Assembly (NCBI RefSeq): GCF_003730275.1
Contig: NZ_QTTA01000010.1
Span: forward strand, 372,001 to 436,000
DNA length: 64,000 nt
Direction of reading: 5' to 3'
Source of the DNA: Brevundimonas halotolerans
GTDB taxonomy: Bacteria; Pseudomonadota; Alphaproteobacteria; Caulobacterales; Caulobacteraceae
The notes below the pieces were generated by a model. The model did not search any database. It saw only the letters and a program-made list of their open reading frames with translations, and had not been told where the DNA came from. Position 1 is the first letter of the stretch. Every line of letters starts with the position of its first letter. Below are positions 4,951-39,231 of the stretch, one piece after another. Made by a program: the position numbers and the translations under genes.

Positions 4951-6333
4951 CTAAACGAAAAATTCCCTGGCCTTGATGAGAGCGGCGGCGAAGGCGTCGG
5001 CGTCCTCCACTGTATTATATAGGGCGAAACTGGCCCGCGTGCTTGAGGTCAGGCCAAATCGGGTGGCCAGCGGCTCGGCGCAGTGCAGACCGGCGCGCAC
5101 CGCCACGCCATAGCGGTCCATGATCTGGGCGATGTCGTGGGCGTGGGCGCCGTCGACGGTGAAAGTGAAGATGGCCCCCTTGCCGGGCGCCGTGCCGATC
5201 TCGGTCAGCCAGTTGAGGCCCGACAGGCGCTCGCGCACCCGCTCCAGCAATGCAGCCTCATGCGCCTGGACCGCTGCCCGGTCGTAGGTGGAGTACCACG
5301 TCAGGGCGGCCCCCAGACCGATGGCCTCGAGGATCGGCGGGGTGCCGGCCTCGAACCGCTGGGGCGGCTTTGCATAGGTGACGCGGTCCTCGCTGACCGA
5401 CTGGATCATCTCGCCCCCGCCCTGATACGGCGGCAGGGACTCCAGCGCTTCGGCGGTGCCATAGAGGGCACCGATGGCGGTCGGGCCGAACAGTTTGTGG
5501 CCGGTCAGGACATACCAGTCGCAGCCCATGGCCTGAACGTCCGGGTCGGCATGGACCGCACCCTGACAGCCGTCGACCAGCACCCGGGCCCCGGCGGCGT
5601 GCGCCAGACGGACGATGTCGGCCACCGGATTGAGGGTGCCCAGCACATTGGACATATGGGTGACGGCGACGACCCTGGTCTTCGGGCCCAGCAGCTCGGC
5701 ATAGGCCTCCATGTCGAGGGTGCCGTCGTCCTTGACCGGGATCCACTTCAGCACCGCGCCATGGCGCTCGCGCAGCATGTGCCAGGGCACGATGTTGGAG
5801 TGGTGCTCCATCTGGCTGACGAGGATCTCGTCGCCGGGCTGGAGGGACTGGCCAACACCGGCGGCGACCAGATTGATCGCCTCGGTGCCGCCCCGGGTCC
5901 ACACGATCTGGTCGGCGGAAGTAGCATTCAGATAGCGGGCGACGGTCTCGCGGGCGGCCTCGAAGGCCTCGGTCGTTTCATTGGCCAGGGTGTGCAGGCC
6001 GCGGTGGACATTGGCATAGCTACCCTCCATCGCCGCCGTCAGGGCGTCGATCACCGCGCGCGGCTTTTGCGCCGAGGCGGCCGAGTCCAGATAGACCAGC
6101 GGCTTGCCGTTCACCTGCCGCGACAGGATCGGGAACTGGGCCCGGACGGCGTGGACGTCGAAGTCTACTGATCCTCCCCTGCTTGCGGGGGAGGGGGACC
6201 GCGAAGCGGTGGTGGGGGCGGACCCAGCGGCGGCGTTTGAAGTCGCCCCCTCCACCGCCGTTCCGGCGGTCCCCCTCCCCCGTTCCGCTGCGCTACCCGG
6301 GGGAGGAGCTATCACGAGCTTTCCATCAGCCAT
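4951..6333 (-). CDS. sufS: Group II cysteine desulfurase SufS with inserted N-terminal segment
   Basis: This PLP enzyme takes sulfur from cysteine and feeds it to SufBCD. It has 460 residues against about 405 in most SufS proteins. The conserved part begins only at about residue 57 (VDFDVHAV). The PLP lysine is K280 in TGHKLFG and the persulfide cysteine is C418 in GLHCAEP. Residues about 8-55 are low-complexity Ala, Gly, Pro, Ser and Thr, encoded by a palindromic repeat (6173-6306) that fits in frame. The start ATG overlaps the end of sufD by 22 bases and has AGGAGG at 6341-6346, seven bases upstream. No start codon lies between the element and the conserved domain, so the segment is probably translated. 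Confidence 0.92.
   Translation of the reverse strand: MADGKLVIAPPPGSAAERGRGTAGTAVEGATSNAAAGSAPTTASRSPSPASRGGSVDFDVHAVRAQFPILSRQVNGKPLVYLDSAASAQKPRAVIDALTAAMEGSYANVHRGLHTLANETTEAFEAARETVARYLNATSADQIVWTRGGTEAINLVAAGVGQSLQPGDEILVSQMEHHSNIVPWHMLRERHGAVLKWIPVKDDGTLDMEAYAELLGPKTRVVAVTHMSNVLGTLNPVADIVRLAHAAGARVLVDGCQGAVHADPDVQAMGCDWYVLTGHKLFGPTAIGALYGTAEALESLPPYQGGGEMIQSVSEDRVTYAKPPQRFEAGTPPILEAIGLGAALTWYSTYDRAAVQAHEAALLERVRERLSGLNWLTEIGTAPGKGAIFTFTVDGAHAHDIAQIMDRYGVAVRAGLHCAEPLATRFGLTSSTRASFALYNTVEDADAFAAALIKAREFFV
6173..6306. repeat. Palindromic repeat element inserted in frame in sufS
   Basis: This is a GC-rich element with nested inverted repeats. Perfect 16-base arms lie at 6187-6202 and 6266-6281, a smaller hairpin ACCGC-GAA-GCGGT sits inside, and the ends read CCTCCCC and GGGGAGG. 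It resembles the intergenic palindromic repeats common in Caulobacterales genomes, but here it lies inside a gene. It adds about 45-48 codons to sufS without a stop. Confidence 0.75.
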
Positions 6334-7373
6334 GTGCGGACCTCCTCTCGCGCACCCTCGTGCTCGATGCGGTCGACGACCTCGAACAGGAAGGCGCGGG
6401 TCAGAAGCGCCCTCGCCTCCTCCGCCGACAGGCCGCGCTGCTGCATGTAGAACAGGGCGCTTTCGTCCAGATTACCGACCGTATTGCCGTGGGCGCACTG
6501 GACGTCGTCGGCATAGATGATCAGCTCGGGCTTGGCATCGACCTCACCCCGGTCTGAAAGGATCAGGGCGTGATGACCCATGCGGGCATCGGTGCCGTCG
6601 GCCCCGCGCTCGACCACGATCTTGCCCTGAAAGACGCCGCGCGCCGTGTCGCGCACCACGCCCTTGATCAGCTGCGAGGTCTGGCCGTCGGGCCCGGCGT
6701 GGGTGACGATGCTGGTCAGGTCGGCATGGCGATCCCCGGTCAGGGCATAGAGGCCGTCGGCACGAACGGTCGCGCCGTGACCGGGGTGGGTCACGTTCGT
6801 TTCGAAACGTTGGAGTTTCGCGCCCGTGGTCAGGATGGTTTGATTGAACTCCGAACCCTCGCTCAACGTCACATCAGCACGGGAAATAGAGATGGCTTCG
6901 GCGGTGTCATCGGCCAGAACGATCCGGTCAAGACGACCGCCTTCGAGGACAACGAAGTTGATCGCAGCGTTGGCGATATATGCGCCTGCCCGGCCCTCAT
7001 AGCTTTCAAGCAGCACGACATGATCATTTGGGCCGACTGTGTAGCCCAACGACGCCTGCCAACCACCAAAGGCGCTATCACTCACGAAGCGAATGGCATC
7101 TAGCAAGGGAGCATCAGGACGGACCGTCAGTCCCTTCCTGCCAAATCCCTTCAGTAAATTGTCGCCTTCATGGGTCCGACCGTTGCCAAAAGTCTGGTAT
7201 TCATTGGTGCAGAGCGCCCGGAACGGCCCGCCGTCGACCTCCACATCGATACGCTCCGCCGCAGCAGGCACCTCCCGAAGGTATCGGCGTACATCAGTGT
7301 ACTTCCACTGCTCGACCCGCCGTGACGGGAAGCTGGAGACGTCGTTCAGGTCGATCCGGGTAGCGAGGTTCAA
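6312..7373 (-). CDS. sufD: Fe-S assembly scaffold subunit SufD
   Basis: This 353-residue protein is the partner of SufB in the SufBC2D scaffold on which clusters are built. The C-terminal half carries the SufB/SufD beta-helix and the conserved end region CAHGNTVGNLDE, YMQQRGL and EARALLTRAF. The last of these is shared with SufB in this operon. The N-terminal half is variable, as in the family. It overlaps sufC by 4 bases (ATGA) and sufS by 22. Codon use changes along the gene: the first half (about 6830-7373) has many A/T-ending codons unlike the neighbours. Recombination with another lineage is one explanation. Confidence 0.93.
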   Translation of the reverse strand: MNLATRIDLNDVSSFPSRRVEQWKYTDVRRYLREVPAAAERIDVEVDGGPFRALCTNEYQTFGNGRTHEGDNLLKGFGRKGLTVRPDAPLLDAIRFVSDSAFGGWQASLGYTVGPNDHVVLLESYEGRAGAYIANAAINFVVLEGGRLDRIVLADDTAEAISISRADVTLSEGSEFNQTILTTGAKLQRFETNVTHPGHGATVRADGLYALTGDRHADLTSIVTHAGPDGQTSQLIKGVVRDTARGVFQGKIVVERGADGTDARMGHHALILSDRGEVDAKPELIIYADDVQCAHGNTVGNLDESALFYMQQRGLSAEEARALLTRAFLFEVVDRIEHEGAREEVRTWLMESS

Positions 7374-33664: not shown

Positions 33665-34353
33665 GCGAGGCGGTCTCCACGCCCATCGAGCCGGAGGCGC
33701 TGACCGCCGACTATCTGCTGCACGCCTATCGCCATGGGTCGTTTCCCATGGCCGACAGTCGGGACGACGACGCCCTGGTCATGATCCGCCCGCACTTTCG
33801 CGGGGTGATCCCGCTGGACCGGTTTCACATCCCGACGCGCCTCGCCCGGACGGTACGCAACACGGACCTCATCGTGCGGGTGAACGGCGACTTCCCCGGT
33901 GTCATCGCCGGATGCGCCGCGGTCATCCGTGACCGGTGGGACACCTGGATCAACCGCCGCATCGAGCAGGCCTACACCGAGTTGCACGATCGCGGGCATG
34001 CCCACAGCGTCGAATGCTGGGCGGGCGATACGCTGGTGGGCGGGCTCTATGGAGTACAGATCGGCGGGGCGTTTTTCGGCGAGAGCATGTTTACCCGCCA
34101 GCGCGACGCCTCAAAGGTGGCGCTGGTTCATCTGGTGGCGCGCCTCAACCGGGCGGGGTTCAGCCTGCTGGACGCCCAGTTCGTCAACGATCACCTGAAA
34201 CAGTTCAACATTCTCGACGTCCCGCACCGGCTCTACATGCAGGATCTGAGACCGGCGCTGGAGCAGACGCCCGACATGGCGGCGTTCAGGGCCGAGATGA
34301 CCGGTCAGCAGGCGCTGGACTATGCCCGGCAGTCGACCAGCCAGGCGTCATAG
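33661..34353 (+). CDS. aat: Leucyl/phenylalanyl-tRNA-protein transferase, probable CTG start
   Basis: Aat adds Leu or Phe from tRNA to proteins with N-terminal Lys or Arg, marking them for ClpAP degradation. The conserved opening [16 protein letters not shown] lies before the first ATG (33748), so that ATG would cut the N terminus. No ATG, GTG or TTG exists in this frame within the preceding part of accC. CTG at 33661 overlaps the accC stop (CTGA), just where an ATGA junction would be expected, giving 230 residues. [33 protein letters not shown] and DAQFVNDHL are family blocks. The end overlaps the DUF2155 gene by 34 bases, tail to tail. Confidence 0.88.
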
Positions 34354-35024
34354 ACGGGGTGTTCCAGCACGCCGAGGCCCGGCGATGAGGCGAACATCCA
34401 GCCCCGGAACAGCTGACGCGGCTCGGCCCCGGTGATCACGCCGCGCGGTTGCAGGCTGATTTCGAGATAGCCAGCCGCTTCCTGATCGCGTTCTCCCTCG
34501 GTCGAGACCTCGCAGGCCCGCACCCGGAAGATCAGCTCGCGCTTGAAGGCGACCGGGCGTCCGCCGACCTCGACCTCAAAGCGAATCGATTCCGCCGTGA
34601 CCTTGTCGACAGCCTGGACCACGGCGACGCGGCGGCGCTGGCGCGGGGGCGGAGGTCCTTCGGGTTCGGTCGGAGCCTGGACAACCTCGACCTCTTCTTC
34701 TTCCTCGTCCTCTTCCTCGGCGGGGGGCGCGATCTCGTTCAGAGCCTCGCCTTGCCGGGCCCGGTTCAGGGCGGCGGTGGTTTCCTCGGGCGTCGGCGGA
34801 ACGGGCACGGGTGCGGCCGGGGCCGGCTGGGCATTGGGCGCAGTCTCGGTCGGGCCGAGGCTATTGGTCTGAGCCGGGTCCTGCGCCGGGGTCGGACCGA
34901 CAGGTGGATCCTGAATCGGGCGGGCGTCCTGGGGACGGTCATTGAGCGCAGCAGTCACGCCCACGCCTCCGACCGCCAGGGTGGCGGCCACAACCAGTCC
35001 CAGAATGCGGGCCGGGCGCTTCAT
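34320..35024 (-). CDS. Exported DUF2155 domain protein
   Basis: This 234-residue protein has an N-terminal signal or anchor (about 5-27), a long Pro/Ala/Glu linker including a run of acidic residues (EEEDEEEEEVEVV), and a C-terminal DUF2155 domain (about 140-234). The domain is seen as VQAVDKVTAESIRFEVEVG, LIFRVRACEVS and [25 protein letters not shown]. The family is found beside NDUFA12 homologues in alphaproteobacteria but its role is unknown. The start ATG overlaps the stop of that gene (ATGA), which decides the start. The two cysteines may pair. Confidence 0.85.
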   Translation of the reverse strand: MKRPARILGLVVAATLAVGGVGVTAALNDRPQDARPIQDPPVGPTPAQDPAQTNSLGPTETAPNAQPAPAAPVPVPPTPEETTAALNRARQGEALNEIAPPAEEEDEEEEEVEVVQAPTEPEGPPPPRQRRRVAVVQAVDKVTAESIRFEVEVGGRPVAFKRELIFRVRACEVSTEGERDQEAAGYLEISLQPRGVITGAEPRQLFRGWMFASSPGLGVLEHPVYDAWLVDCRA

Positions 35025-35431
35025 TCGGGCTTCCACGCCTCATAGTCGCCGGTCGCGGCGGGGCGCTGGCCCTCGGTCAGGACCGAGCCCGGCGGACGCC
35101 AGGCCATGGGCGTCCCGCTCATATTGGGCATATGGTCCTTTTCCCAGCTCTGGCGGTGCAGGGCGTCCTCGGTCGGCGGTTCGTCAAAAGTGTAGTGCAG
35201 CCAGCCGTGCCAGTCGGGCGACACCTTGGTCGCCTCGGCATAGCCCTCATAGATCACCCAGCGCCGGTGCCGCCCGTCATAGCTCTGGGTGTCGCGCGAT
35301 TCGTAATAGCGGTTGCCCAGGGCGTCCGTTCCAACCAGACGACCGCGCTTGGCCACTGTGAACAGCGTGCCGATCGTCGCACCACTCCACCAGGAAAACA
35401 GTTTGGCCAGCACGTCTCGGAACCCAGTCAT
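35021..35431 (-). CDS. NADH:ubiquinone oxidoreductase NDUFA12-family protein
   Basis: This 136-residue protein matches the NDUFA12/B17.2 family, an accessory subunit of complex I in alphaproteobacteria and mitochondria. The conserved block RGRLVGTDALGNRYYE is followed by RRWVIYEGYAEATKVSPDWHGWLHYT and a C-terminal AWRPPGS. It should lie on the cytoplasmic arm of complex I. The start at MTGFRDVL is chosen because the longer frame upstream has no conserved residues. It is coupled to the DUF2155 gene and divergent from the first pentapeptide-repeat gene. Confidence 0.9.
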   Translation of the reverse strand: MTGFRDVLAKLFSWWSGATIGTLFTVAKRGRLVGTDALGNRYYESRDTQSYDGRHRRWVIYEGYAEATKVSPDWHGWLHYTFDEPPTEDALHRQSWEKDHMPNMSGTPMAWRPPGSVLTEGQRPAATGDYEAWKPE

Positions 35432-35580
35432 GACAGAAGGCGCGGACCTGTGCGCGCCGGTGGCATCATACGAACCGGCACCGGGCGCGTCCAGCGGTGG
35501 ATCGTCCCATGCCGAGGCTCTCGTCGCGGCGCGAAACTTGCAAGGCGGGGCGCGACCTATCACCGCCTGGGACGCCCTTG

Positions 35581-36093
35581 ATGACCCGACCATTCCTCGC
35601 CACCGCCCTCGGGCTGTCCGCCGTCATTCTGGTGCTGGCCGCCGCCCTGCCCGAACCGGCCCTGGCCCAGAACGCCAGCCAGATCGCGCGGGTCAGGGCG
35701 GGCCAGAGCTGCCCGGGCTGCAACCTGTTCCAGGGCGACTTTTCCTACATGGAGGCGCGCGGTCTGAACCTGTCCGGGGCGCGGCTGCGTCAGGCGAACC
35801 TCAGCCTGTCCGTGATGAACCGGACGCGCTTCACCAATGCGGACCTGCGCGATGTCGACGCCTATGGGGCCGTGTTTTCCAGCGCCCGATTCGGCGGGGC
35901 CAATCTGACCAACGCCAGTTTCGTCGGGACCTTTCTGGAAGGCGCCGACTTCTCCGGAGCCCGACTGGACGGCGTGAATTTCTCCGGCGCACAGATGCAG
36001 GGCGCCACCGGACTGACCCAGCGCCAGCTGGACCGGGCCTGCGGAGACGCGGCCACCCGCCTGCCGGGATCGCTTCGCATTCCCGCCTGCTGA
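35581..36093 (+). CDS. Exported pentapeptide-repeat protein 1
   Basis: This 170-residue protein has a clear signal peptide ending ALA-QNAS near residue 30. The mature part begins with a Cys pair (SCPGCNL), followed by about 18 pentapeptide repeats of the A(D/N)LxX type (35-145) that form a right-handed beta-helix. It ends with LTQRQLDRACGDAATRLP and a terminal cysteine. The closely similar end and Cys pair in the next gene indicate paralogues. No catalytic residues are visible; it is probably a structural or binding protein in the periplasm. Confidence 0.85.
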   Translation: MTRPFLATALGLSAVILVLAAALPEPALAQNASQIARVRAGQSCPGCNLFQGDFSYMEARGLNLSGARLRQANLSLSVMNRTRFTNADLRDVDAYGAVFSSARFGGANLTNASFVGTFLEGADFSGARLDGVNFSGAQMQGATGLTQRQLDRACGDAATRLPGSLRIPAC

Positions 36094-36155
36094 TGGTCTC
36101 CATCCTTACGGCGAATTAAGTAGGGATTTGTGGGCAATGACGGCATGGAGAAGGC

Positions 36156-37130
36156 GTGAAAAGTCTTGTGATCCCCTTTGCGAAGCCTGAGCCGAGCGGT
36201 CGGACCGCCCTGGTCGGACTGGCCCTGTTGACGGCCCTCGTCGCCACGACGGCGCGCGCCGGGGACACCGATGCCCACACGGGCCGTCAGGAGTCGCGCT
36301 TCACGCGCCAGATCCAGGACGTGCTGCCGGTCCAGGACGGCACCTTCCAGATTTACCCGCAGGATCCGGACGTGGCCCGCGTGGTCTCGCTGGGCGGCAC
36401 CTGCCGACGCTGCGAACTGTCGGGACGGAACCTGTCCGGCGCCACCTTTACGGCCGCCACCTTCATCGACGCCACCCTGGTGGAAACGGACCTGCGCGGG
36501 TCCGAACTGGTCGGCTCGAACTTCTCGGGCGCAGACTTCACCCGGGCCGACCTGCGCGGCGCGACGCTGGTCGCCGCCAACTTTACCGGTGCGGATTTCA
36601 CCAATGCCCGGCTGGACGGGGTCGAGGGGTTGGGATCGGTCTTCGTGCGCGCCGACATGTCCGGGGCCAATCTGTCCGGTGCGGCGCTCGGCGGTGCCAA
36701 TATGAACGGCGCCATTCTGGTGCGGGCCAATCTGAACGGGGCCGAGTTGTTCGGCGTCACCCTGGCCAATGTGAATGCACGCGGCGCCGATTTCCGCAAT
36801 GCCGAGGTCACCGCCTCGAACCTTTCCAACGGCAATTTCGCCGGTGCGGACTTCCGCGGCGCGGAGCTGAACGGGGCCCGACTGACGGGCGGCTCGTTCT
36901 CGCGGGCCGATTTCACCGGCGCCTCTCTGGAGCGGGCCGACATTCGCGGCACCGACCTCAGCCTGTCGCGCGGCCTGACCCAGTCCCAGATCAGCGAGGC
37001 TTGTGCCGACTCCTCGACCCGCCTGCCTGGTGGTCTGACGGGCCGCAGCTGCCGCAACCTGTCGCGGGTTCAGCCCCCGGCCGCCCCCCGCCCGCCGGCA
37101 CCGCCCCGCGTGGTGGTCGCAGGGCGCTAA
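36156..37130 (+). CDS. Exported pentapeptide-repeat protein 2
   Basis: This 324-residue paralogue of the preceding protein has a signal peptide ending near ARA-GD (about residue 36), a unique segment of 45 residues, and a Cys pair (TCRRCELS). About 35 pentapeptide repeats follow (about 85-275), then LTQSQISEACADSSTRLPGG with two cysteines and a Pro-rich tail. The start is GTG with AGAAGG just upstream. The two genes lie 62 bases apart and are probably co-transcribed. The function is unknown; the beta-helix could bind envelope proteins or act as a spacer. Confidence 0.82.
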   Translation: MKSLVIPFAKPEPSGRTALVGLALLTALVATTARAGDTDAHTGRQESRFTRQIQDVLPVQDGTFQIYPQDPDVARVVSLGGTCRRCELSGRNLSGATFTAATFIDATLVETDLRGSELVGSNFSGADFTRADLRGATLVAANFTGADFTNARLDGVEGLGSVFVRADMSGANLSGAALGGANMNGAILVRANLNGAELFGVTLANVNARGADFRNAEVTASNLSNGNFAGADFRGAELNGARLTGGSFSRADFTGASLERADIRGTDLSLSRGLTQSQISEACADSSTRLPGGLTGRSCRNLSRVQPPAAPRPPAPPRVVVAGR

Positions 37131-37236: not shown

Positions 37237-39078
37237 TCAGACCTTGATCGGCAGGGCCGTGCGGATGTGGACGTCCTTGAGCTGACGCTCGGCCGCTTCC
37301 GTCGGCGCGTTCATCAACAGATCCTCGCCCTGCTGGTTCAGTGGGAAGGCGATGACCTCGCGAATGGCCGTCTGGTTGGCCAGCAGCATGACGATCCGGT
37401 CGATGCCGGGGGCCAGACCGCCGTGCGGCGGCGCGCCATAGCGGAAGGCGTTCAGCATGCCGCCGAACTGGTCCTCGACCACCGAGGCGTCATAGCCGGC
37501 GATCTCGAAGGCCTTCAGCATGATCTCGGCCTTGTGGTTCCGGATGGCGCCCGAGCACAGCTCATAGCCGTTGCAGACGATGTCGTACTGATAGGCACGG
37601 ATGGTCAGGGGATCCTGGGTCTCCAGCGCCTCCAGCCCGCCTTGGGGCATCGAGAAGGGGTTGTGGCTGAAGTCGACCTTCTTCTCTTCCTCGGACCATT
37701 CGAACATCGGGAAGTCGACGATCCAGCAGAATTTGAACTGCGCCTCGTCGATCAGCTTCAGCTCGGACGCCACGCGCGTGCGGGCCAGACCGGCGAATTT
37801 GGCGAAGGTGGCGGGCAGGCCGGCGGCGAAGAAGGCGGCGTCGCCCTTGCCCAGACCCAGCGCGGTCATCAGGGCCTCGGTCGGCTCCTGACCCAGATTC
37901 TTGGCGATCGGCCCGCCCCAGGCCTGCTGGTCGTCGGACCAGAAGATGTAGCCGAGGCCGGGCTGGCCCTCGCCCTGAGCCCAGCTGTTCATGCGGTCGC
38001 AGAAGGCGCGCGAGCCGCCGGTCGGGGCCGGGATGGCCCAGACGGCGTTCTTCTGGTCGGCACCGAGGATCTTGTTGAACAGGCCAAAGCCGCCGTCGCG
38101 GAAGTGGTCCGACACGTCCTGCATCTTGATCGGGTTGCGGGTGTCCGGCTTGTCGGTGCCGTACCACTTCATCGACTGTTCGTAGGTCAGGCGCTCGAAG
38201 CCCTTGTGCTCCAGCGTCTGGCCAAAGTCGTTGGTGAAGGTCTGGGGCTGGTCGATCGGAGACACCGGCTTGCCGTCGGCGAACTCCTCGAACACGCCAT
38301 GCATGACCGGTTCGATGGCCGCAAAAACATCCTCTTGCGTGACGAAGCTCATCTCGACGTCCAGCTGATAGAATTCCAGCGAGCGGTCGGCGCGCAGGTC
38401 TTCATCGCGGAAACACGGCGCGATCTGGAAATAACGGTCGAAGCCCGAGACCATCAGCAGCTGTTTGAACTGCTGCGGGGCCTGCGGCAGGGCGTAGAAT
38501 TTGCCGGGATGCAGGCGCGACGGCACGAGGAAGTCGCGCGCACCTTCGGGGCTGGAGGCCGTCAGGATCGGGGTCTGGTACTCAAGGAAGCCCTGATCGA
38601 CCATCCGGCGGCGGATCGAGCTGATCACCTTCGAGCGCAGGACGATATTCTTGTGCAGGGTCTCGCGGCGCAGATCGAGGTAGCGGTGCTTCAGGCGCAG
38701 CTCCTCCGGATATTCCGGCTCGCCAAACACCGGCAGGGGCAGTTCGGCGGCTTCCGACAGGACCTCGACGGCCTTGACCTGGATCTCGATCTCGCCGGTC
38801 GGCAGGTTGGCATTCTTCGTTTCGGCCGAGCGGGCCACGACCTCGCCGTCCACGCGGATGACGCTTTCGGCCCGCAGGCGCTCGACCGCCTCAAAGCCCG
38901 GCGTCTCGGGGTGCAGCACCAGCTGGGTCAGGCCGTAGTGGTCCCGCAGGTCGATGAACAGCAGGCCGCCGTGGTCGCGCTTGCGGTGGACCCAGCCCGA
39001 CAGACGGACCGTCTTGCCGGCATCGTCACCCCGAAGGGCGCCGCAGGTGTGGGTACGATAAAGATGCGTCTCGGCCAT
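37237..39078 (-). CDS. aspS: Aspartyl-tRNA synthetase (bacterial type, long form)
   Basis: This class II synthetase (613 residues) charges tRNA-Asp, and in many alphaproteobacteria also tRNA-Asn. An N-terminal OB fold (about 1-105, [15 protein letters not shown]) is followed by the catalytic core with RYLDLRRE (motif 1 region), [10 protein letters not shown] (motif 2) and [13 protein letters not shown] (motif 3), plus the bacterial GAD insertion domain (about 300-420). The ATG giving MAETHLYR is the family start; the longer frame runs over unrelated sequence. A small exported-protein gene is divergent. Confidence 0.96.
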
Positions 39079-39231
39079 GGGTCTGGATCGGTCGTCAAAG
39101 GGGGAGAATTCGGGAGGGCGGAAGGGCGCATTATCGCCGCTGAAAGTCAAGCGTGCGGGCGCTCCGCCGTGCGGCACGCCGCCCCTCTCAGGGGGCTTTT
39201 CGCGGACGTTACAATGTAGCATAGGGGAGAC

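Follow-up and report, generated by a model that had tools for sequence, protein, structure and literature searches.

Tandem pentapeptide-repeat proteins with predicted export signals in Brevundimonas halotolerans: a probable YjbI/PerA ortholog behind a putative UzcR-type operator, and its conserved sister

Introduction

The pentapeptide-repeat proteins Qnr and MfpA act in the cytoplasm. In the window, a 64,000-nucleotide stretch of the Brevundimonas halotolerans genome, two adjacent genes encode pentapeptide-repeat proteins that both begin with a signal-peptide-like segment, which raises the question of what such proteins do outside the cytoplasm and whether they do it together. A sequence-only reading of the locus saw a secreted, probably disulfide-capped pair that would form an envelope structure of unknown use.

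Caulobacter crescentus secretes a pentapeptide protein that bears a cysteine pair at either end and has been described as YjbI, also named PerA (CCNA_01968). According to the available excerpts of that work (PMC12864828, EMBO J 2026), YjbI carries a functional export signal, acts at the outer membrane and silences UzcSR and ChvGI; stress by zinc, copper, acid or sucrose leads to its loss, which releases both responses. The same excerpts list the yjbI promoter as an UzcR ChIP target. PerA had been found earlier as a factor for killing by CdzC/D (excerpt of the review PMC7690452). Secreted pentapeptide proteins of known role are few, and YjbI, one of them, ties the state of the outer membrane to antibiotic entry. 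We find that the longer protein of the Brevundimonas pair, PRB, is very probably a member of this family, and that the shorter one, PRA, is a sister protein for which the literature searched (few subscription journals covered) yielded no published study.

Results

Locus and neighbouring genes

Table 1. Features of the PRA-PRB locus, in window coordinates.
Feature	Coordinates	Strand	Description
DUF2155 protein, neighbour	34320..35036	-	PF09923
NDUFA12 homologue, divergent neighbour	35021..35452	-	PF05071; NF006040 over its cut-off
PRA	35581..36093	+	ATG start, 170 aa, short pentapeptide-repeat protein, signal-peptide-like N-terminus
Putative UzcR-type operator TTACGGCGAATTAAGTAG	36106..36123	+	PRA-PRB gap, upstream of PRB; TTAC-N6-TTAA core 36106-36119
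PRB	36156..37130	+	GTG start, 324 aa, long pentapeptide-repeat protein, probable YjbI/PerA ortholog
aspS (aspartate-tRNA ligase), convergent downstream anchor of locus	37237..39090	-	NF001750, 825 bits vs cut-off 443

Inspection of the open reading frames places the two genes in tandem, 62 bp apart (Table 1). The sequence-only reading was right about two pentapeptide-repeat proteins of different lengths: PRA (170 aa) scores 79.4 bits and PRB (324 aa) 139.6 bits against PF00805 (cut-off 20.2). The NDUFA12 and DUF2155 genes that it had named beside them are confirmed by PF05071 and PF09923, and look like syntenic neighbours of the pair rather than partners.

Searching genome contigs with PRA gave 79 loci (from the best 80 of 81 matches), mostly in Brevundimonas and other Caulobacterales, with some in Oceanicaulis, Maricaulis and Henriciella; seven distant ones, L089-L095, are not counted as orthologs. 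A separate PRB-type open reading frame on the same strand accompanies PRA in 70 of these 79 loci, the nine without it being L068, L079 and L089-L095. The pair is therefore conserved far beyond the strain, and the pairing is not due to chance. The opposite strand carries aspS in 65 of the same 79 loci and NDUFA12 in 51; where at least 4.9 kb is available upstream of PRA, NDUFA12 is found in 48 of 59 loci, and the 11 without it include five (L020, L023, L032, L037, L048) in which it is outside reach.

NDUFA12 and PRA are 2.1-4.1 kb apart in 47 of the 51 loci, and about 0.13 kb, matching the window, in L017-L019 and L075. In L034 the protein encoded in this gap resembles vitamin-B12-dependent ribonucleotide reductase (best score 296 bits, short of the curated cut-off of 1737), and by similarity an nrdJ-like gene occupies it in L161-L167; for the other loci we infer such a gene from the spacing. 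Three genomes of group g13 (L165-L167) show the full order accC-aat-DUF2155-NDUFA12-nrdJ-PRA-PRB-aspS. We take them for Caulobacter. Group g13 includes that genus, since PRB and PRA of its member L132 are the same as those of the named Caulobacter locus L065.

In the window, the reductase-like gene of the relatives is missing upstream of PRA (35453-35580), and the spacing indicates the same for L017-L019 and L075. A search of the window's whole genome with the L034 protein finds nothing at E <= 0.001. The matches of the ribonucleotide reductase family model there are weak and partial (110 bits at best), but all 14 control genomes also stay under its cut-off, so this score alone says nothing about the absence of nrdJ.

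Architecture of the two proteins

Export of both proteins, as claimed earlier, is supported by our own signal-peptide rule, a hydrophobic stretch together with an A-x-A-like site, which marks residues ~1-29 of PRA and ~1-35 of PRB. Among the orthologs, 69 of 70 PRA sequences pass, the sole miss (L049) lying at a contig end; for PRB, 65 of 69 have the hydrophobic stretch, 63 of 69 have stretch and A-x-A, and four sequences fall just under the threshold. The CxxC motifs before the repeats are present as described, CPGC in PRA and CRRC in PRB, the latter preceded by an unstructured linker. The shared C-terminal cap also holds, with the common pattern GLTQ..ACxD..TRLP..C and two cysteines in each protein (GLTQRQLDRACGDAATRLPGSLRIPAC in PRA, GLTQSQISEACADSSTRLPGGLTGRSC in PRB). 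Beyond its cap PRB continues into a proline/arginine-rich tail, RNLSRVQPPAAPRPPAPPRVVVAGR; PRA has neither such a linker nor a tail.

Structure prediction, which had been proposed as a check, gives a beta-helix for both proteins. The AlphaFold2 model of PRA (alignment of 46 sequences, the window and 45 of 70 loci) has a mean pLDDT of 98 and an estimated ~20 pentapeptides. That of PRB (40 sequences, the window and 39 of 69 loci) has helix blocks with pLDDT 95-99, an estimated ~38 pentapeptides, an unstructured linker and a low-confidence tail. The four cysteines flanking the PRB helix are invariant in all 40 aligned sequences, and the cysteine pairs are recognized by pattern in 67 of 69 loci, the exceptions being L038, where only the residue before the cysteine differs, and L081. 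The charged PRB tail has a median of 30 residues after the last cysteine (range 0-230, 69 loci). In PRA, 0-4 residues follow the last cysteine in 70 of 70 loci, so the charged tail is absent, and for this reason PRA was not assigned to YjbI. PRA is a well conserved sister of PRB that shares its caps but has roughly half its helix length and lacks the tail. Some PRB-type proteins of Oceanicaulis and Maricaulis (L078, L081, L084, L086) reach 398-481 aa through long C-terminal extensions past the cap.

The fold by itself would allow the two proteins to be gyrase-protecting DNA mimics of the Qnr/MfpA type, and Foldseek indeed places both among the pentapeptide proteins Rfr32 (2F3L/2G0Y), AT2G44920 (3N90), HetL, MfpA and Qnr, in line with matches to Qnr and MfpA models. 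HetL (3DU1), which shares the PF00805 beta-helix, is the first match of PRB (TM 0.63 by query). Both proteins nevertheless miss every curated Qnr, MfpA, HetL and Alr5209 cut-off: the best Qnr scores are 26 bits against 460 for PRA and 64 against 240 for PRB, and the nearest approach is PRB on Alr5209 (103.9 bits versus 125). Together with the signal-peptide-like N-termini and the functional export signal of C. crescentus YjbI (PMC12864828, excerpts), this makes gyrase mimicry extremely unlikely, and we dropped it. Rfr32, from a cyanobacterium, and AT2G44920, from a plastid, are lumenal proteins of the same fold, with 20-29% identity to PRA and PRB in the Foldseek alignments. 2G0Y is termed a YjbI ortholog in the excerpts of PMC12864828.

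Relation of PRB to YjbI/PerA

PRB resembles YjbI/PerA, as far as the excerpts of PMC12864828 describe it, in its predicted signal peptide, its quadrilateral beta-helix, the cysteine pairs at both ends, the flexible, charged, proline-rich tail, the post-nrdJ position in relatives and the candidate UzcR-type box in the promoter. The window's PRB differs in its longer linker, in a tail based on arginine rather than lysine and in the missing nrdJ alongside. PRA, for its part, lacks the tail, about half of the helix and the UzcR-type box.

Gene order links PRB to the published locus tag. NrdJ is CCNA_01966 (excerpts of PMC6538847 and PMC5869019) and aspS is CC_1892 (excerpt of PMC3073932), so with the order nrdJ-PRA-PRB-aspS of L165-L167 PRB should be CCNA_01968. 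The window keeps the order except that nrdJ is absent beside the pair. What ties PRB to CCNA_01968 is gene order together with residue numbers, and an additional annotated reading frame could shift the order. The residue numbers fit in kind. In YjbI, residues 256-294 were left flexible as a C-terminal loop, and a tail mutant combines K284A/K287A with removal of the terminal lysine (PMC12864828, excerpts). PRB measures 281-316 aa in 12 translated g13 loci, and in the four that were counted (L131, L137, L128, L140) its last cysteine is residue 257. Near the end of these four, lysines stand three residues apart (283/286/289 in L131, L137 and L128; 287/290/293 in L140), and the run ends at the C-terminus or one residue before it. 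None of the four has lysine at both 284 and 287; the spacing fits and the exact numbers do not.

The assignment could also be reversed, with PRA as YjbI/PerA and PRB as the unstudied protein. PMC12864828 gives YjbI '183 residues' in one place, nearer to the length of PRA (160-171 aa in translated g13 loci, ending within 4 residues of the last cysteine), and this speaks against PRB; in g13 each of the two proteins carries a pair of cysteines on either side of the helix and a ~24-residue signal peptide, so that a signal at 1-24 is compatible with either. At PRA length, however, residues 256-294, K284, K287 and a lysine-bearing charged tail are impossible, PRA is the first gene after nrdJ (CCNA_01966) and not at the position of CCNA_01968, and the UzcR-type box goes with PRB. 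We consider the reversed assignment very unlikely. PRB is probably the ortholog of YjbI/PerA (CCNA_01968), as judged from gene order, residue numbering and the UzcR-type box. A further point against this assignment is that the published tail function rests on lysines, in place of which the window's PRB has arginines. We take '183 residues' as a probable slip in the excerpted text; residue numbers elsewhere in it run to 294, and a possible mix-up with the neighbouring gene could be settled by its authors.

For PRB, then, the 'unknown use' of the sequence-only reading largely gives way to the outer-membrane role described in the excerpts of PMC12864828. The tag inferred for PRA, CCNA_01967, like CCNA_01969, CC_1890 and CC_1891, is not mentioned in the paper texts searched, and no study of such a PRA-PRB pair besides the YjbI work was found in that literature.

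The comparison weakens the idea of disulfide caps. Maleimide-PEG labels two cysteines of YjbI on cells and another two once EGTA has been added, a result that the authors read as reactive cysteines (PMC12864828; in the excerpts, the use of reductant is not stated lane by lane). These results argue against disulfide caps, and disulfide capping was dropped as a key feature.

Conservation and co-occurrence of the pair

In the aligned subsets, mean identity per column reaches 76% over the 146 columns of PRA and 54% over the 342 columns of PRB, figures that are not strictly comparable because the PRB value includes the variable tail and its set omits the most distant loci. Pairwise identities of the repeat regions to the window, PRA versus PRB, are 65% versus 48% in L065, 59% versus 30% in L078, 55% versus 31% in L084 and 47% versus 33% in L087. 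These distant pairs point the same way, suggesting that PRA is better conserved than PRB/YjbI. Across 289 genomes sampled from the class, the PRA profile matches 23 at E <= 1e-20; in five of these the match exceeds 120 bits, the window's own genome and one congener among them.

We scored 390 genomes of the family for PRB at E <= 1e-15 (345 positive) and for PRA at E <= 1e-20 (271 positive). The PRB matches were graded by E-value as strong (286), middle (25) and weak (34), and strong and middle were counted as present (311). The weak class is mixed: six of its 34 members were later shown to be short PRBs, and the weak matches of G020, G035 and G039 lie away from the PRA locus. On this basis 227 genomes have a strong PRB with PRA, four a middle PRB with PRA and 39 neither; 40 have PRA only and 80 PRB only, the latter two counts being inflated by draft gaps and diverged copies.

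These numbers bear on the idea of a single envelope structure of which PRA and PRB would be the two obligate subunits. The 70 of 79 loci (from the best 80 of 81 matches) with both genes, and the shared caps, would fit such a complex, as would Brevundimonas (g1), where 122 of 131 genomes have both genes, nine neither and none one alone at our thresholds; the two profiles also match over 132 columns, which is partly expected between any two pentapeptide families. Outside Brevundimonas, however, each gene is often found without the other, as the 40 and 80 single-gene genomes indicate. PRA occurs without PRB in 25/25 g4, 5/5 g21 and 3/3 g22 genomes, and a strong PRB without PRA in 33 of 101 g20 genomes. 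Four genomes examined at the locus itself show clean single absences: L161-L163 have no PRB between PRA and aspS, and L164 has no PRA between nrdJ and PRB. PRA and PRB are therefore linked in place and not obligate partners. We regard the obligate complex as doubtful and dropped it given the independent losses; the suggestion that the pair acts as one structure is not supported in the form in which it was made.

The putative UzcR-type operator upstream of PRB

The gap between PRA and PRB contains an element with the consensus TTACCGCGATTTAAGTAGGG. Not a single base differs in 13 of the 18 columns among 49 distinct sequences, preselected by a score of >=13/18 against the consensus, and the flanking columns carry <=0.9 bit except for the base just after the element (1.5 bit). 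The published half-sites of UzcR are CATTAC-N6-TTAA (PMC8963506, excerpt). TTAC-N6-TTAA is present in 66 of 68 gap regions, including the window, compared with 0.05% of shuffled regions; the regions of the loci extend into the start of PRB, and the two misses are L071 and L087.

The element could instead be the site of another regulator. The upstream CA of CATTAC-N6-TTAA is present in only one of the 68 gap regions, and conservation reaches past the published half-sites. Set against this, the complete CATTAC-N6-TTAA is found in all three g13 loci examined, L165 and L166 (CATTACCGCAATTTAAGTGG) and L167 (CATTACGGCGATTTAAGTGG), and the yjbI promoter is a ChIP target of UzcR itself (PMC12864828, excerpts). 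We judge a different regulator to be quite unlikely, and keep the assignment of the element, at 36106-36123 in the window, as a candidate UzcR box.

Genome-wide, the 16-mer TTACNNCRAWTTAAGT occurs in 284 of the 390 family genomes, compared with 11 of 390 for its reversed control, and by reading of the table it is single-copy in 281 of the 284; its position at PRB was verified in the gap set and the examined loci, which make up a part of the 284. It is present in 276 of the 311 genomes with a strong or middle PRB (the exact 16-mer is absent from 35) versus 8 of the 79 without. Outside g1 it tracks PRB (158/189 with versus 8/70 without) and not PRA (93/149 with versus 73/110 without), these counts across genomes not being independent of ancestry. 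Of the eight box-positive, PRB-negative genomes, seven encode a short PRB of 183-190 aa that starts <=40 bp from the box, and in the eighth, G186, the contig ends just after it. The box thus serves as a cheap marker, having flagged seven short YjbI-type proteins that the protein search scored absent. In these seven genomes (L202-L208) the shortened PRB has no proline-rich tail and retains the N-cap, the cysteines and the UzcR-type box.

The loci with a single gene behave likewise. L164, with PRB only, retains the box before PRB; L161-L163, with PRA only, show none, either in the 300 bp preceding PRA or from the end of PRA up to aspS. Upstream of PRA no common motif resembling the PRB box stood out in 70 sequences (the window and 69 loci); the commonest 8-mer, in 32 of the 70, appears to be the 3' end of the nrdJ coding sequence. 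A wider UzcR regulon was not seen in the window's genome, as the looser core TTAC-N6-TTAAG is not enriched there (2 sites, versus 6 and 6 for the reversed control). What is new here is a near-invariant putative UzcR-type operator just upstream of PRB throughout the family.

Discussion

The locus suggests that the family has kept the feedback operator of YjbI almost unchanged, and that YjbI adjoins a well conserved sister that is exported as well. From the locus, the architecture, the fitting residue numbering and the family-wide box observed here, we infer the orthology itself and, by analogy, that the same circuit may run in the window's genome. Exported and folded as a quadrilateral beta-helix, PRB would sit on the outer membrane as a sentinel and keep the two-component systems UzcSR and ChvGI quiet. 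Zinc, copper, acid or sucrose stress would lead to its loss, upon which both systems would fire and change the set of outer-membrane receptors. UzcR would at the same time activate PRB through the box at 36106-36123 and so replenish it. Of these steps, the export signal, outer-membrane association, stress-induced loss, derepression and UzcR binding at the yjbI promoter are known from C. crescentus (PMC12864828, excerpts).

PRA, which has no UzcR-type box of its own, would be made outside the PRB feedback loop, and it is probably a second envelope-located pentapeptide protein. We hold the reading of PRB as a YjbI/PerA ortholog and outer-membrane sentinel under an UzcR feedback box to be highly probable, and propose PRA as a second envelope protein outside the loop with moderate confidence. 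More tentatively, PRA may be a second outer-envelope sentinel of the Caulobacterales, so that two exported proteins would respond to distinct inputs and one would stand in where the other is lost. This extension, to which we give somewhat less than even weight, draws on the presence of PRA without PRB in every g4 genome (25/25) and of PRB without PRA in many others.

The window's genome also contains a second tandem pentapeptide pair elsewhere, on contig C4 (L016:4264-5535 and 5532-6761). Its two genes overlap by 4 bp and encode proteins of 423 and 409 aa that show no signal peptide by eye, and they lie beside phosphoglycerate mutase, ribD-type and ribulose-phosphate epimerase genes.
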